Assembly (NCBI GenBank): GCA_025937835.1
Contig: JAICQO010000044.1
Coordinates: 1-50,210 of the forward strand
Reading direction: 5' to 3'
Length of the DNA: 50,210 bases
Source: Polyangiaceae bacterium
GTDB lineage: Bacteria; Myxococcota_A; Polyangia; Polyangiales; Polyangiaceae
In this document: piece by piece, positions 3,312 to 7,830 of the stretch
Numbering within the stretch: the stretch's first letter is position 1
Layout: the number at the start of each line of letters is the position of its first letter
Made by a program: the position numbers and the translations under genes
Notes under the pieces: generated by a model
Told to the model about the DNA's origin: nothing
Databases searched by the model: none
What the model saw: only the letters and a program-made list of their open reading frames with translations

Positions 3312-4358
3312 TTGGTTACTCTCGTCTTGTGCGGCGCTTGTCACCGGCATTTCCGCGCCCGCGACGCGGTCTGTCCGTTCTGTGGGGCGAGCGCGGCTTC
3401 GGCGGTCGCGCCGCGCGCGGTGACCGGGCTCGTGCCGGGAGCCTCGCGGTCGCGGCGGTATGCGGCGAGCGCCGCGTTCCTCGCGGGCAGCGCGCTGTTT
3501 GCCTGCGGCGAGACGTCGGACGGCGGCGACGCCAACACCAGCGCGGGAACCGGCGGCGAACAGTCGCAAGTCACGACCGGCGGCGCGAGCTCAGGGCAGG
3601 GCGGGTCGAAGTCGAGTCAGGGCGGCTCGGCAGCGGGTTCCGGCGGAGCGAGCGCAGGGGCCGGTGGCGACGACACCGGTGGAGCGGTCTCGAGCGGCGG
3701 AAAGCTGCAATCGACGGGCGGCGCGCTCGGCAGCGGCGGCGGAGCTGAGGGCGGCGCCGCCACCAAAGCGACCGGCCGCGCCTGCGAGGGCTTCACCGAT
3801 CGCAGCGGCTGCCACAGTGTGGACGAGTGTTCATCGCAACCGGCGGGGATCGGCTCGGTGAGCTGCGTGCTCGTCGAACCGCCGCGCTCTTGCGGCAATC
3901 CGCAGTTTCAGCCGCGGTGCCCAGAAGAGGGCTGCGGTGACGGACAGGTTTGCATCCAACAGACGTGCGGCTCTCTGTGCATGCCCGCCTGTACGGAGAC
4001 GTCGTGCGCGGCGGGGAACGAGTGTGTCGATGGGCAGTGTCAGCCGCTGCCCTGTTCGGAGACGCAGGTTGCTTGCCCGGATGGCTTCGAGTGCGATTTC
4101 GACGCGACAGGGCCCGGCAACCACTGCGCGCCCGTGCATTGCGAGACCGGCGACTACGAGTGTCAGCCCTGGCAAGACTGCGCACAACGGCCCGGTGTCG
4201 ACGCCCACGGCTGCGTCGCGCACGAATGCGCCGCGGATGCGGACTGCGGTACGTGCGGCTACTGCGTGAACCGTCAGTGCGCGCCACAGCTCGGCATTTG
4301 TTTCCAGATGATCGCCATGCCCTACGGCTGCGTGTGGCCCGACGAGGAGCTGATGTGA
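3312..4358 (+). CDS. Membrane-anchored Cys-rich protein with zinc ribbon
   Basis: A 348-residue protein. The start is TTG 3312, supported by GGAGGAGA seven bases before it. Residues 7-24 form a CxxC...CxxC zinc-ribbon-like knuckle (C7, C10, C21, C24). Residues 48-64 are a hydrophobic segment ending in FACG. Residues 70-150 are a Gly/Ser/Ala/Thr-rich linker. The last ~190 residues contain 29 cysteines in repeated CxxG.xCvdGqC-like patterns, ending in a Tyr/Trp/acidic tail (PYGCVWPDEELM). A cytoplasmic ribbon, one membrane pass and an exported disulfide-rich head is the simplest reading. Its stop overlaps the GTG start of the radical SAM gene (GTGA), so the two are translated together. It may be that enzyme's substrate or partner. 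No known family was recognised for the whole protein. Confidence 0.8.
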   Translation: MVTLVLCGACHRHFRARDAVCPFCGASAASAVAPRAVTGLVPGASRSRRYAASAAFLAGSALFACGETSDGGDANTSAGTGGEQSQVTTGGASSGQGGSKSSQGGSAAGSGGASAGAGGDDTGGAVSSGGKLQSTGGALGSGGGAEGGAATKATGRACEGFTDRSGCHSVDECSSQPAGIGSVSCVLVEPPRSCGNPQFQPRCPEEGCGDGQVCIQQTCGSLCMPACTETSCAAGNECVDGQCQPLPCSETQVACPDGFECDFDATGPGNHCAPVHCETGDYECQPWQDCAQRPGVDAHGCVAHECAADADCGTCGYCVNRQCAPQLGICFQMIAMPYGCVWPDEELM

Positions 4359-5656
4359 CGGCGCCAGACGCGCTGAGTGCGTCCGAGCGCGAGCTCTTGA
4401 TGCGCGCGCCGCGCCCGCGCGTGGCGCTGCCGGTGTTCCGCGAGAGCGCGTCGCGCCGGCTGCCGCTCGCGGGCAACGTGCGCGCGGTCGATCGCAGTGA
4501 TCGACCCGTCTACGTGGTCTGGGAGCTCACCCTGAAATGCGATCTGGCGTGCCGGCATTGTGGCTCTCGCGCCGGCGCGCCGCGTTCCGACGAGCTCAGC
4601 CTGGACGAGGCGCTCGGCGTGGTGCGCCAGCTCGCCGAGCTCGGCGTGAAGGAAGTCACGCTGATCGGCGGCGAAGCCTACCTTTACGAAGGCTGGACCC
4701 AGGTGATCGCGGCGATCCGCGCGCACGGCATGCAGTCGAGCCTGGTCACGGCGGGCCGCGGCTTCGACGAAACGCGCGCGCGGGCGGCGAAGGCCGCGGG
4801 GCTACAGACGGTGTCGTTCTCGCTCGACGGGAACCGGGCCACGCACGATCGGCTGCGCGCGTTGGACGGCGCCTACGAGGCGGCGCGCTCGGGCATGCGG
4901 GTGTGTCGAGCGATCGGCTTGCCGTTTTCGGTCAACACCCAGGTCAACCGCCTGAGCCTGCCGCACCTCGAGCACGTCTTCGAGAGCCTCGCCGAAGCGG
5001 GCGCCCACGGCTGGCAAATCCAACTCACGGTTCCCGCGGGGCGCGCTGCGGACGAGCCCGAGGTGCTGCTGCAGCCCTACGATCTGCTGCGGCTGTTTCC
5101 GGTGCTCGCCGAGCTCAAGCAGCGTGCGGAGCGCGCGCGGATCAAGTGTTTGATCGGCAACAACCTCGGCTACTTCGGGCCTTACGATCACGTGCTGCGC
5201 GATCTGTCGCCGTGCGGGCACAGTCAGAGCTGTCAGGCCGGACGCCTGGGGCTCGGTATCGAGGCCAACGGCGACATCAAGGGCTGCCCCTCGCTGCCCA
5301 CGGATCGCTGGGTCGGCGGTAACGCACGCGAGCGCACTCTCGAGGAGATCTGGGAGCGCTCGGAGCCGCTGCGTTACAACCGCGATCGCACGGTCGATGA
5401 TCTGTGGGGTTTCTGCCGGAGTTGTTACTACGCGGACGAGTGCCGCGCCGGGTGCACCTGGATGGCGACGTCGTTGTTCGGCCGCCCCGGTAACAACCCG
5501 TATTGCCACCACCGCGCGCTCGAGCTCGAGAAGCTCGGCCAGCGTGAGCGCGTCGTGCAACGCACGCCGGCGCCGGGCTCGCCCTTCGATCACGGGCTGT
5601 TCGAAATCGTGCTCGAGCCTACAGCCGCGCCCGTAGCCAATCGACAATCGCGGTAG
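4355..5656 (+). CDS. Radical SAM/SPASM domain enzyme
   Basis: A 433-residue enzyme starting at GTG 4355, four bases into the end of the preceding gene. The radical SAM motif CDLACRHC (CxxxCxxC) binds the catalytic 4Fe-4S cluster and SAM. The (beta/alpha) barrel follows with the glycine-rich VTLIGGEAYLY strand. The C-terminal part has a SPASM-type set: CPSLP, then CRSCYYADECRAGC (CxxCx5Cx3C) and a final NPYC, which would hold one or two further clusters. SPASM enzymes mostly modify ribosomally made peptides or enzyme partners, for example by thioether or C-C crosslinks. No short precursor peptide is visible beside it; the coupled Cys-rich protein is the natural candidate partner. The 3' end overlaps the convergent hydrolase gene by 38 bases. 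Confidence 0.93.
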   Translation: MTAPDALSASERELLMRAPRPRVALPVFRESASRRLPLAGNVRAVDRSDRPVYVVWELTLKCDLACRHCGSRAGAPRSDELSLDEALGVVRQLAELGVKEVTLIGGEAYLYEGWTQVIAAIRAHGMQSSLVTAGRGFDETRARAAKAAGLQTVSFSLDGNRATHDRLRALDGAYEAARSGMRVCRAIGLPFSVNTQVNRLSLPHLEHVFESLAEAGAHGWQIQLTVPAGRAADEPEVLLQPYDLLRLFPVLAELKQRAERARIKCLIGNNLGYFGPYDHVLRDLSPCGHSQSCQAGRLGLGIEANGDIKGCPSLPTDRWVGGNARERTLEEIWERSEPLRYNRDRTVDDLWGFCRSCYYADECRAGCTWMATSLFGRPGNNPYCHHRALELEKLGQRERVVQRTPAPGSPFDHGLFEIVLEPTAAPVANRQSR

Positions 5657-6833
5657 CCAGCGCAGGCGCAAGCTTCGGGCGCGCCGAGCCCGGCGGCGAG
5701 AGCTGGTGATCGATCGCCTCGAGCTCCAACGCCGCGCCGCGTCCGCCTGCGGCTTCGGCGATCGCCCGCGAATCGTCGAGCGTCGTGATCCAGTCGTCGC
5801 TGCCGTGTATCGCGAGCACGTCGCAGCCGACGCGCGACCACGCGCCGCGCAAGCCGGCGCGCTCGAGCTGATGATAAAACCGCACCACCCGCTGGTAGGC
5901 CTGATCGGCGGCGAAGTGCGCCGGGGCCGCGCTCGCGATGTCGGGGCGCTCGGCGAACACCTCGGCCGGCGTTTTGCCGGCGCAGACCAGCCGCACCAAC
6001 TCGCTCACGAGCCCGGCACGGCGTCGGGCGGTCTCGCGGTCCGGCTGCCGCTCGGCGTGCCGGACCAGCGCTCCCACGAGCCCTTCGGAGATCGGCATCG
6101 CGCTCGCGCCGAAGGTCACGATGCCAGCGACTCCGGCTGACTCCGCCAGTAACGGAGCCACCATCGCGCCCAGGCTGTGCCCGAACAAGAACACGCGCTG
6201 CGGGCTGGCCCAGTCGCTCGCGAGCAGCTGCCCGAGCCCTGCCCGGTATCCGGCGAGCTCGGTCTCGAAGTCGGTGCGCGAGCACGGTGGGCCCTGACTG
6301 TCACCGACGCCGCCGCGCTCGATCCGCAGCGTCGCGACGCCCGCGGCGCTCAGCGCGCTCGCCAGAGCCGGCACCGGGTTCTCGAGATCGAGCGGGTACT
6401 CTTCGGAGGCCCAATGCGCTCCCGGCAAATAAACGACCACCGGGTGCGGGCCCTGCGTGTCGGGGACCACGGCGAGTGTTCGCAGCCAGACTCCTCCGCT
6501 CTGGACCTGCCCGAGCAGGATGCGGGCCGCCGCGTAGCGCTCCAGCGGAAACTCGCTGAGCTCGAGCTCGACCTCGAACGCTCCCCCCGCCCTCGACAGC
6601 TCGAGCAGGAGCGGATCGCCCGCACGCAGCGCGCGCAGGAGCGTGCGCACTTCGACGAGGTCGGTCGCGGGGTTCCGGTCGAGGGCGAGCAGCAGATCGC
6701 CGGCCTGGACCCCCGCGCGCTCGGCGTCCGAGCCGGACGCGACGCTGCGGATCGCGAGCCCCTGACCTTTGGCCGCGCTCGAAGCCAGCGTCAACCCCAG
6801 GAACGCGCGCCGAGGCAGCTGAAAATCGGACAC
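5619..6833 (-). CDS. PDZ domain - alpha/beta hydrolase fusion
   Basis: A 404-residue protein, GTG start at 6833. Residues 8-85 look like a PDZ domain: RRAFLGLTL carboxylate-binding loop, then SGSDAERAGVQAGDLLLALD. The remainder is an alpha/beta hydrolase with oxyanion region VVYLPGAHW, nucleophile elbow FGHSLGAM, acid GSDDW and catalytic His in DHQLSPP. The hydrolase resembles serine esterases or S9-type peptidases, and the substrate is unknown. The PDZ part would bring C-terminal peptides or itself into a complex. There is no clear signal peptide, so it is probably cytoplasmic, although an RRAFLG stretch near the N-terminus superficially resembles a Tat motif. It is divergent from the dehydrogenase gene with only 40 bases between starts. 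Confidence 0.85.
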   Translation of the reverse strand: MSDFQLPRRAFLGLTLASSAAKGQGLAIRSVASGSDAERAGVQAGDLLLALDRNPATDLVEVRTLLRALRAGDPLLLELSRAGGAFEVELELSEFPLERYAAARILLGQVQSGGVWLRTLAVVPDTQGPHPVVVYLPGAHWASEEYPLDLENPVPALASALSAAGVATLRIERGGVGDSQGPPCSRTDFETELAGYRAGLGQLLASDWASPQRVFLFGHSLGAMVAPLLAESAGVAGIVTFGASAMPISEGLVGALVRHAERQPDRETARRRAGLVSELVRLVCAGKTPAEVFAERPDIASAAPAHFAADQAYQRVVRFYHQLERAGLRGAWSRVGCDVLAIHGSDDWITTLDDSRAIAEAAGGRGAALELEAIDHQLSPPGSARPKLAPALATAIVDWLRARL

Positions 6834-6873: not shown

Positions 6874-7830
6874 ATGTCGGACGTCGCGCGCGCTCACGTC
6901 GCCCTCGAGCTCGGGGACGCGGAGCGGCGGGCGTGCAGCGAGGCGCTCGCCCGGCACGGCTTCGAACCGAGCTTCGTCGGCAGCACCGAGCAGCTCGCGC
7001 GAGCCTTGCCCGACTGCGAATACTTGCTGCTCGGCCGCCCTCCGCGCTTCGACTGGAGCCCGGCTACGCGCCTCGAGCTGCTTCAGATCGCCGGAGCGGG
7101 GGTCGATCCGCTGTTCCCGAGCCAAGGCCTCCGCGGCGCGACGATCATCGCCAATTGCCGCGGCCTGCACGCCAATGCCGTCCGCGATCACGTGATGGCG
7201 TTGCTGCTCGCCTTCGCGCGCGATCTGCCTCGCGCCCTCGCACAGCAGGCGCGGCGGGAGTGGCGGAGCTTCGCGTGCGCGCCGCTCGCCGGGAAGACGC
7301 TGGTGCTGCTCGGCCACGGCGCGATCGGTGCGCGCGTTGCCCTCGCCGCGCGCGGGTTCGGGCTGCGAGTTCTTGCGGTGACCCGCTCCGGAAGAGCCGC
7401 GCCGGGGCTCGAAGGCGTCTTCGAAAGCGCCGAGCTCGAGCACGCCGTGCGAGATGCCGACTATTTCGTGCTCTGCGCCCCGCTCACCTCCAAGACCCGC
7501 GGCTTGGTCGATGCCCGAGTGCTCGCCGCGCTGCCCGCTCACGCGGTCGTCATCAACGTTTCGCGCGGCGCGCTGCTCGACCACACCGCGCTGGAAGCCG
7601 CGCTTCGCGCACAACGCCTGGCCGGGGCCGCCCTGGACGTCATCGACCCCGAACCCCTGCCGCCCGCGAGCTCGCTCTGGCACTGCCCGGGGCTCTGGAT
7701 CACGCCCCACGTCGCCGGCCACGAGCCGTTCTACCTGGCGAAGGTGTTCGAAGCGTTTGCTACGAACGTTGCGCGGCTGCGACGTGGTGAGGCGGCGTTG
7801 GAAATGGTTTCACGGGAGCTCGAATACTGA
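6874..7830 (+). CDS. D-isomer-specific 2-hydroxyacid dehydrogenase
   Basis: A 318-residue NAD(P)-dependent dehydrogenase. The dinucleotide-binding glycine motif is GHGAIGARVA. The catalytic Arg is in VINVSRGALLD, the Glu in DPEPLP, and the His in ITPHVAGH, all in the usual order. It belongs to the GyaR/SerA/GhrA-like superfamily and reduces 2-keto acids such as glyoxylate or hydroxypyruvate. The exact substrate cannot be told. It lacks an ACT domain, so it is not a typical biosynthetic SerA. The barrel protein gene follows after 48 bases on the same strand. Confidence 0.93.
   Translation: MSDVARAHVALELGDAERRACSEALARHGFEPSFVGSTEQLARALPDCEYLLLGRPPRFDWSPATRLELLQIAGAGVDPLFPSQGLRGATIIANCRGLHANAVRDHVMALLLAFARDLPRALAQQARREWRSFACAPLAGKTLVLLGHGAIGARVALAARGFGLRVLAVTRSGRAAPGLEGVFESAELEHAVRDADYFVLCAPLTSKTRGLVDARVLAALPAHAVVINVSRGALLDHTALEAALRAQRLAGAALDVIDPEPLPPASSLWHCPGLWITPHVAGHEPFYLAKVFEAFATNVARLRRGEAALEMVSRELEY

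Follow-up and report, generated by a model that had tools for sequence, protein, structure and literature searches.

A probable splicease-type radical SAM/SPASM enzyme and its predicted substrate, a zinc-ribbon lipoprotein precursor, in Myxococcota

The stretch of DNA analysed here (the window) comprises 50,210 nucleotides from a member of the Polyangiaceae (Myxococcota; assembly GCA_025937835.1, contig JAICQO010000044.1), and this report concerns a pair of plus-strand genes in it that probably encode a protein-modifying enzyme and its substrate. The upstream gene, P0001 (3312-4358), has a TTG start behind GGAGGAG and encodes 348 residues. The downstream gene, P0002 (4355-5656), has a GTG start and encodes a radical S-adenosylmethionine (SAM)/SPASM protein of 433 residues. 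The genes share a GTGA overlap at 4355-4358, which an earlier, sequence-only reading of this DNA took as a sign of partnership. The reading frames and the overlap were confirmed. The overlap is not general in the family: among 90 enzyme loci the partner genes lie upstream or downstream at varying distances.

P0001 is a protein of several parts. Its first 24 residues form a zinc ribbon (CGACHRHFRARDAVCPFC, 3330-3383) that is also captured by a profile and in which C7, C10, H13, C21, P22, F23 and C24 are invariant in 29 aligned rows. After a spacer, a short hydrophobic h-region (3456-3506), identified by its sequence pattern, closes with the lipobox-like LFAC at residues 62-65, whose Cys (C65) is likewise invariant in 29 rows. 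A Gly/Ser-rich low-complexity linker, evident from the sequence (3507-3776), leads to a Cys-rich head (3777-4301) that varies among relatives and is missing from most of them. The tail, PYGCVWPDEELM (4320-4355), contains the predicted splice site Tyr338-Gly339 at 4323-4328, and the C-terminal end of the protein reads FQMIAMPYGCVWPDEELM. There are 34 Cys residues in all: the four of the zinc ribbon (C7, C10, C21 and C24), C65, and 29 beyond it, of which 28 are in the head and one is in the tail. No Pfam or NCBIfam model matched P0001 at an E-value of 1.

P0002 exceeds the cut-offs of the Pfam models for radical SAM (PF04055) and SPASM (PF13186) domains. Its radical SAM motif, CDLACRHC (CX3CX2C), lies at 4538-4561, with the three Cys invariant in alignments of relatives, and the SPASM cysteines, located by the Pfam match, alignment and sequence, lie at 5231-5515. 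The best NCBIfam model was TIGR04103 (nif11-class maturase 3; 468 bits, residues 50-429), which we take to be the same family entry as IPR026482, and the second best was TIGR03913 (GDL motif; 429 bits, residues 51-422). The first match in a plasmid collection was an enzyme of Nostoc sp. C057, 50.3% identical over 88% of P0002, that is annotated as a nif11-class maturase 3 and passes TIGR04103 at 853 bits. This enzyme adjoins a precursor with a Nif11 leader that ends in GGRGSIALYGLPPELF (end stretch also given as SIALYGLPPELF; last residues LYGLPPELF).

The chemistry of this enzyme family is known from PlpX, a member of IPR026482, with which tyramine is excised from Xaa-Tyr-Gly (PMC11002830). 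The PlpXY splicease and its products, spliceotides, go back to Morinaka 2018, as cited in PMC10533398 and PMC11002830. Natural sites of the excision at XYG, as given in PMC10533398, include MYG and LYG; the same source describes the leader as dispensable and quotes 939 predicted splicease systems. Protease inhibition has been attributed to beta-residues (PMC10373908). P0002 belongs to the same extended family of SPASM radical SAM enzymes, and P0001 carries X-Tyr-Gly (PYG), as splicease substrates do. In both systems Tyr-Gly is often followed by xP (LYGLPP in Nostoc, YGxP in the zinc-ribbon partners described below).

We consider P0002 a probable splicease-type radical SAM/SPASM enzyme and P0001 its probable substrate, exported as a lipoprotein. 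The case is a comparative one, built on gene pairing, motif enrichment, the lipobox pattern, phyletic association and enzyme homology. In the family, at least 88 of 108 genomes contain a match to P0002 at an E-value of 1e-20 or better, some of these matches probably being other SPASM enzymes. Ninety enzyme loci, the window included, were taken among the matches listed and compared, with flanks of at most 1.5 kb in nine. A zinc-ribbon partner is encoded on the same strand at 63 of the 90 loci and has Tyr-Gly at 61, and at two more it is found on the opposite strand only. These counts come from a filter based on motif position; an earlier filter with a strict hydrophobic pattern gave 55 of 90. 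The co-occurrence of the enzyme with an exported partner, put forward in the sequence-only reading as a check, is thus recurrent. Similarly, 58 of 80 loci with organism names (a set overlapping the 90, counted without the two loci of the window's own genome) have a same-strand zinc-ribbon partner, in 52 cases with Tyr-Gly. The genome of the window itself has two zinc-ribbon matches, one adjoining each of two close enzyme copies.

Several loci depart from this layout. L036 and L065 show a Tyr-Gly tail of a partner truncated by the contig start. Five more loci encode a divergent zinc-ribbon protein whose lipobox reads CYG, on the same strand as the enzyme in L076 and L090 and on the other strand in L079, L084 and L089. 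Together with L183, L192, L194 and L197, these five belong to an enzyme clade in which the Tyr-Gly of the partner directly follows the lipobox-like Cys (e.g., LMACYGMPP), which would make the predicted lipidated cysteine the residue that precedes Tyr. We also searched for short Tyr-Gly frames, as candidate precursor peptides, beside enzymes that lack a zinc-ribbon partner, and nothing convincing was found beyond L036, L065 and L071. In L071, the enzyme frame itself ends in AEKYGAPPMRK, as if bearing its own substrate tail.

Conservation was examined in proteins whose selection rested on a zinc ribbon in the vicinity of an enzyme and was independent of Tyr-Gly: 192 such proteins gave 151 distinct sequences, of which all but five (146) show a Cys following a hydrophobic stretch. 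The residue before this Cys is Ala, Gly or Ser in 142 of the 146 (129 fit a stricter lipobox pattern), and the uncharged stretch preceding it has a median length of 15. Tyr-Gly is present in 139 of 144 mature parts longer than 20 residues. After the lipobox Cys, 300 of 355 Tyr residues precede Gly, compared with 64 in shuffled sequences (standard deviation 6, maximum 81, 300 runs), and only 24 of 153 Phe do so. A partner may have up to five Tyr-Gly. Another set of 86 proteins, chosen because they hold Tyr-Gly, has A, L, V, M, P or I most often just ahead of Tyr, and Pro most often three positions after it. The lipobox Cys is the only mature Cys in 117 of the 146 distinct partners, compared with 29 Cys beyond it in P0001 and 45 in its nearest relative. 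Judged from these comparisons, the conserved system is the combination of zinc ribbon, signal peptide and Tyr-Gly tail, and the Cys-rich head is a cargo of P0001 and a few others. Between P0001 and the partner in genome G097, identities are 33 of 66 positions in the zinc ribbon and signal peptide, 25 of 84 in the linker, 79 of 180 in the head and 11 of 18 in the tail; the earlier expectation that the tail would be the most conserved part thus finds weak support, in one close pair. G097 has two Cys-rich zinc-ribbon proteins, both ending in PYGCVWPDDEFV, one of which is on a different contig from the enzyme.

The association extends beyond the family and includes zinc-ribbon proteins encoded far from the enzyme. 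Within the family, all 21 chosen genomes with the enzyme had a zinc-ribbon match (many of them had supplied the profile), as did two of 20 genomes without the enzyme (G063 at 1.4e-7 and G047 at 2.8e-5). Among 235 genomes drawn evenly from the phylum, with E-value thresholds of 1e-60 for the enzyme and 1e-7 for the zinc ribbon, the enzyme was detected in 94 genomes and zinc-ribbon matches in 40, all of which are among the 94. Outside the family, all 29 zinc-ribbon genomes have the enzyme, which occurs in 81 of the 217 genomes there. At this threshold 54 of the 94 enzyme genomes had no zinc-ribbon match among the best candidates scored; only the best 7 (or best 25) candidates were scored per genome, which makes presence surer than absence, and relatedness is uncorrected in these counts. 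Forty stretches from seven match-rich genomes yielded 46 zinc-ribbon proteins (three stretches gave no protein by the filter). Of these proteins, 41 have Tyr-Gly; 41 are also on a different contig or more than 40 kb from the enzyme, and 36 of these remote proteins have Tyr-Gly. In the genome G324, three enzymes are accompanied by at least 25 zinc-ribbon matches.

The tail sequence follows the enzyme phylogeny. In a quick tree of 102 enzymes, the eight whose partners have PYGCV(F/W)PD tails require a single change (mean of 7.8 after shuffling, with none of 500 shuffles as low). They group with four enzymes of YGGxFPD partners in a clade of 12 rows with a Shimodaira-Hasegawa-like approximate likelihood ratio (SH-aLRT) support of 97; in a fifth row labelled YGGxFPD (L019), the string is internal and not C-terminal. 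That tail class tracks enzyme clade is consistent with recognition of the tail by the enzyme, and is not proof of it because the genes for enzyme and tail are linked.

The zinc ribbon also occurs as a module outside these partners. A ribbon of the P0001 type is found at the C-terminus of GDL-type enzymes (28 bits in Azospirillum, 18 bits in Aureibacter) and in small separate proteins (36 bits in L168, 17 bits in L199), and 200 shuffles of the Azospirillum stretch that preserved its Cys scored at most 12 bits. Loci of GDL-type SPASM enzymes with the ribbon at the enzyme C-terminus are L115:3893-5443 and L116:3938-5362; L199 and L168 are also in the ribbon set. Such a module, apparently shifting between enzyme and substrate, may serve for docking. 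The GDL enzymes of TIGR03913, whose partners are DUF1843 peptides, resemble the present system in having an enzyme homologous to P0002, the same type of ribbon and some partner peptides with PYG or LYG near the N-terminus. They differ in the placement of the ribbon, which is on the enzyme or separate, and in the shortness of their peptides. Among four translated DUF1843 peptides, P0006 and P0010 have PYG near the start and P0007 and P0009 have no Tyr-Gly there; short peptides like DUF1843 at L187, L193 and L199 contain PYG or LYG. P0001 itself is not a DUF1843 peptide, as no Pfam model matched it.

The segment of P0001 that ends at C65 is better read, on its pattern, as a lipoprotein signal peptide than as a permanent anchor. 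Its position is unusual, with the zinc ribbon and spacer ahead of it. The sequence of P0001 fits a substrate of an enzyme for ribosomally synthesized and post-translationally modified peptides (RiPPs) that bears a lipoprotein signal, and a parallel is available in the DAG-RiPPs, hybrids of RiPPs and lipoproteins made by multinuclear non-heme iron-dependent oxidative (MNIO) enzymes; the authors of that work raise the possibility of further hybrids (PMC12636315). There, as predicted here, a cytosolic enzyme acts on a C-terminal motif before the lipoprotein pathway acts at the N-terminus, and the substrates of that subfamily of enzymes include some larger than 30 kDa (PMC12636315). The differences are that P0001 and P0002 involve a radical SAM enzyme instead of an MNIO enzyme, a zinc ribbon before the signal peptide, and another motif.

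A number of observations weigh against a splicease reaction on P0001. P0002 falls below the curated cut-offs of both related models (468 versus 725 bits for TIGR04103, 429 versus 591.75 bits for TIGR03913). The natural sites of PlpXY, as quoted in PMC10533398 and PMC11002830, do not include one with Pro before Tyr-Gly, as in the PYG of P0001. P0001 is a large zinc-ribbon lipoprotein precursor, unlike the Nif11- or nitrile-hydratase-leader peptides of the PlpXY system, and no RiPP leader of these or other types was recognised in it by family models at an E-value of 1. No PlpY-like partner was recognised among the four annotated genes flanking the pair (MarR-type, PDZ-hydrolase, 2-hydroxyacid dehydrogenase and cytochrome c'-like), small genes not being profiled. 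At 18 of the 90 enzyme loci there is no partner in the stretch examined; in three of these a contig end is within 30 bases of the match, and L085 and L087 have a weak zinc-ribbon match at a distance of about 3.6 kb, slightly beyond that stretch. Five of the 46 zinc-ribbon lipoprotein-like proteins, all from G312, lack Tyr-Gly, and four of the five have 31 Cys (these four are encoded at L224 and L225). Finally, support is only 75 for the branch joining the eight PYGCVxPD enzymes, and the joint phylogeny of enzyme and tail, whose genes are neighbours, partly reflects linked inheritance.

Other explanations bear on which part of P0001 is modified and where the protein resides. The sequence-only reading raised the possibility that P0002 acts on its large partner, with the Cys-rich head as the favoured site. 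Action on the large partner gains strong support from comparison, given the recurrent pairing (61 of 90 loci), the common tail motif and the fact that the closest enzyme family acts at X-Tyr-Gly; the head as target has been dropped as the main idea, because most partners have no head and the enzyme occurs mostly without a Cys-rich partner. A version in which the head receives, for example, sactionine-type links and the tail is a mere recognition tag could appeal to the 29 and 45 Cys of P0001 and its nearest relative; other enzymes of the 12-row clade, however, have partners with about 0 to 10 Cys beyond the lipobox, the four 31-Cys proteins without Tyr-Gly also count against it, and we regard this version as highly improbable. 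The same reading had the segment before C65 as a true transmembrane anchor, with the zinc ribbon staying in the cytosol. A zinc ribbon before the signal peptide is indeed unusual for a lipoprotein, but the short uncharged stretch and the Ala, Gly or Ser before the Cys in nearly all relatives have the pattern of a lipoprotein signal peptide, and an anchor seems distinctly unlikely.

The nature of the reaction may also be questioned. An AlphaFold model of P0002 (mean predicted local distance difference test score, pLDDT, 87) gave PqqE, SkfB and SuiB as its first Foldseek matches, and these are crosslink-forming enzymes. P0002 might accordingly modify the Tyr-Gly tail by another radical reaction, such as a thioether or C-C crosslink from Tyr338 or Cys340; PYGC places a Cys next to Tyr-Gly, and both splicease-related cut-offs were missed. 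However, most partners (117 of 146) have no mature Cys other than the lipobox one, and the nearest named relative, that of Nostoc, belongs to the splicease family and has a precursor core with LYGLPP. We hold such another reaction to be unlikely. Alternatively, the lipoprotein might not be modified at all, with Tyr-Gly and the zinc ribbon serving as a dock that positions the SPASM enzyme at the membrane to act on some other substrate, an idea to which the occurrence of the ribbon on GDL-type enzymes or as a small separate protein lends some weight. The presence of up to five Tyr-Gly in a partner, and of at least 25 zinc-ribbon proteins for three enzymes in one genome, points instead to many substrates and not to one dock, which makes this alternative very unlikely in our view. 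Splicing of the Tyr-Gly tail by P0002 remains our preferred explanation.

A candidate third component in the sub-clade of the window, suggested by comparative evidence, is encoded at 5619-6833 on the minus strand. Two domains were recognised in this protein: a PDZ domain, found in eight of eight homologues (in one of them below cut-off), and one of the alpha/beta hydrolase type. In the latter, Ser220, Asp347 and His376 are invariant in eight rows and plausibly form the catalytic triad. Its model (pLDDT 89) has esterases, lipases and aminopeptidases as the nearest folds. The PDZ-hydrolase is present near full length in 12 of 108 family genomes: all nine with PYGCVxPD or YGGxFPD tails (beside the enzyme in seven, elsewhere in G097 and G098) and three of 99 others (Fisher test, 6e-11, from a table filled by hand in which genomes without fetched loci counted as others). 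Tails of these two classes end in Val in 13 of 14 cases, the exception being Met in P0001, and other tails in 13 of 126. Among 93 distinct loci with tails, those of 8-24 residues with V, I, L, M or F as the last residue occur at 12 of the 13 loci where the hydrolase adjoins the enzyme and at 17 of the 80 without it. The simplest reading of these patterns is that the PDZ domain would read the free C-terminus of the tail. Against it, G084 and G085 have the hydrolase beside the enzyme and a partner that ends in Asp; in G019 (L078), the third genome outside the tail classes with the hydrolase, the tail ends in Ala.

Other features of the window were noted in passing. A D-2-hydroxyacid dehydrogenase gene (6874-7830) adjoins the hydrolase gene in G000, G097 and G044, and in G048 lies beside a contig-cut piece of it. 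Its product was considered as a ketone reductase and set aside as a loose lead; G037, G077 and G082 have the dehydrogenase without a hydrolase match. Upstream of the pair are a direct repeat array with 14-base spacing (112-400), several duplications of 49-88 bases (358-1724), among them one of the 3' end of a gene for a 23S rRNA intervening-sequence-type protein (372-902) that recurs at 1239-1315, and a putative addiction-module component (1584-1853).

We infer the following scheme, which covers the chemistry on P0001, the sequence of events, what the zinc ribbon and the hydrolase do, and the function. In the cytosol, P0002 would bind the P0001 precursor, probably aided by the zinc ribbon, and excise the tyramine part of Tyr338 in PYG. 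The spliced precursor would then be exported via its signal peptide, lipidated on Cys65 and cleaved by signal peptidase II, the last step removing the zinc ribbon. What remains would be a lipoprotein of the envelope that bears an electrophilic ketoamide close to the C-terminus and perhaps acts as a tethered inhibitor of proteases, and in the sub-clade of the window the PDZ-hydrolase would probably recognise the free hydrophobic C-terminus. We propose more tentatively that Myxococcota have a class of splicease-modified lipoproteins, with tens of members in some genomes, in which the ribbon might be a detachable leader that docks the enzyme, delays export until the tail is spliced and is then removed by signal peptidase II. 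One enzyme might serve many substrates in trans, and in the window's clade the tail might be a PDZ ligand for a dedicated PDZ-hydrolase carrying out a second, tail-specific step.

Published work already covers tyramine splicing, how widespread it is and its action on proteins, as well as RiPP-lipoprotein hybrids for MNIO enzymes. The title of a paper by Scott (Chem 2022, doi 10.1016/j.chempr.2022.09.017), on widespread ribosomal beta-amino acid peptides and proteins, takes in proteins in addition to peptides. In the literature searched, with Scott 2022 outside that search, no account joined tyramine splicing to lipoproteins or described the zinc-ribbon proteins; the zinc-ribbon leader and the link to a PDZ-hydrolase are likely the new parts. 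If correct, our interpretation would add a large class of exported lipoproteins to the targets of tyramine splicing and would place an electrophilic ketoamide in the cell envelope. It would also suggest the zinc ribbon as a removable leader, and a hydrolase that may read the spliced tail.

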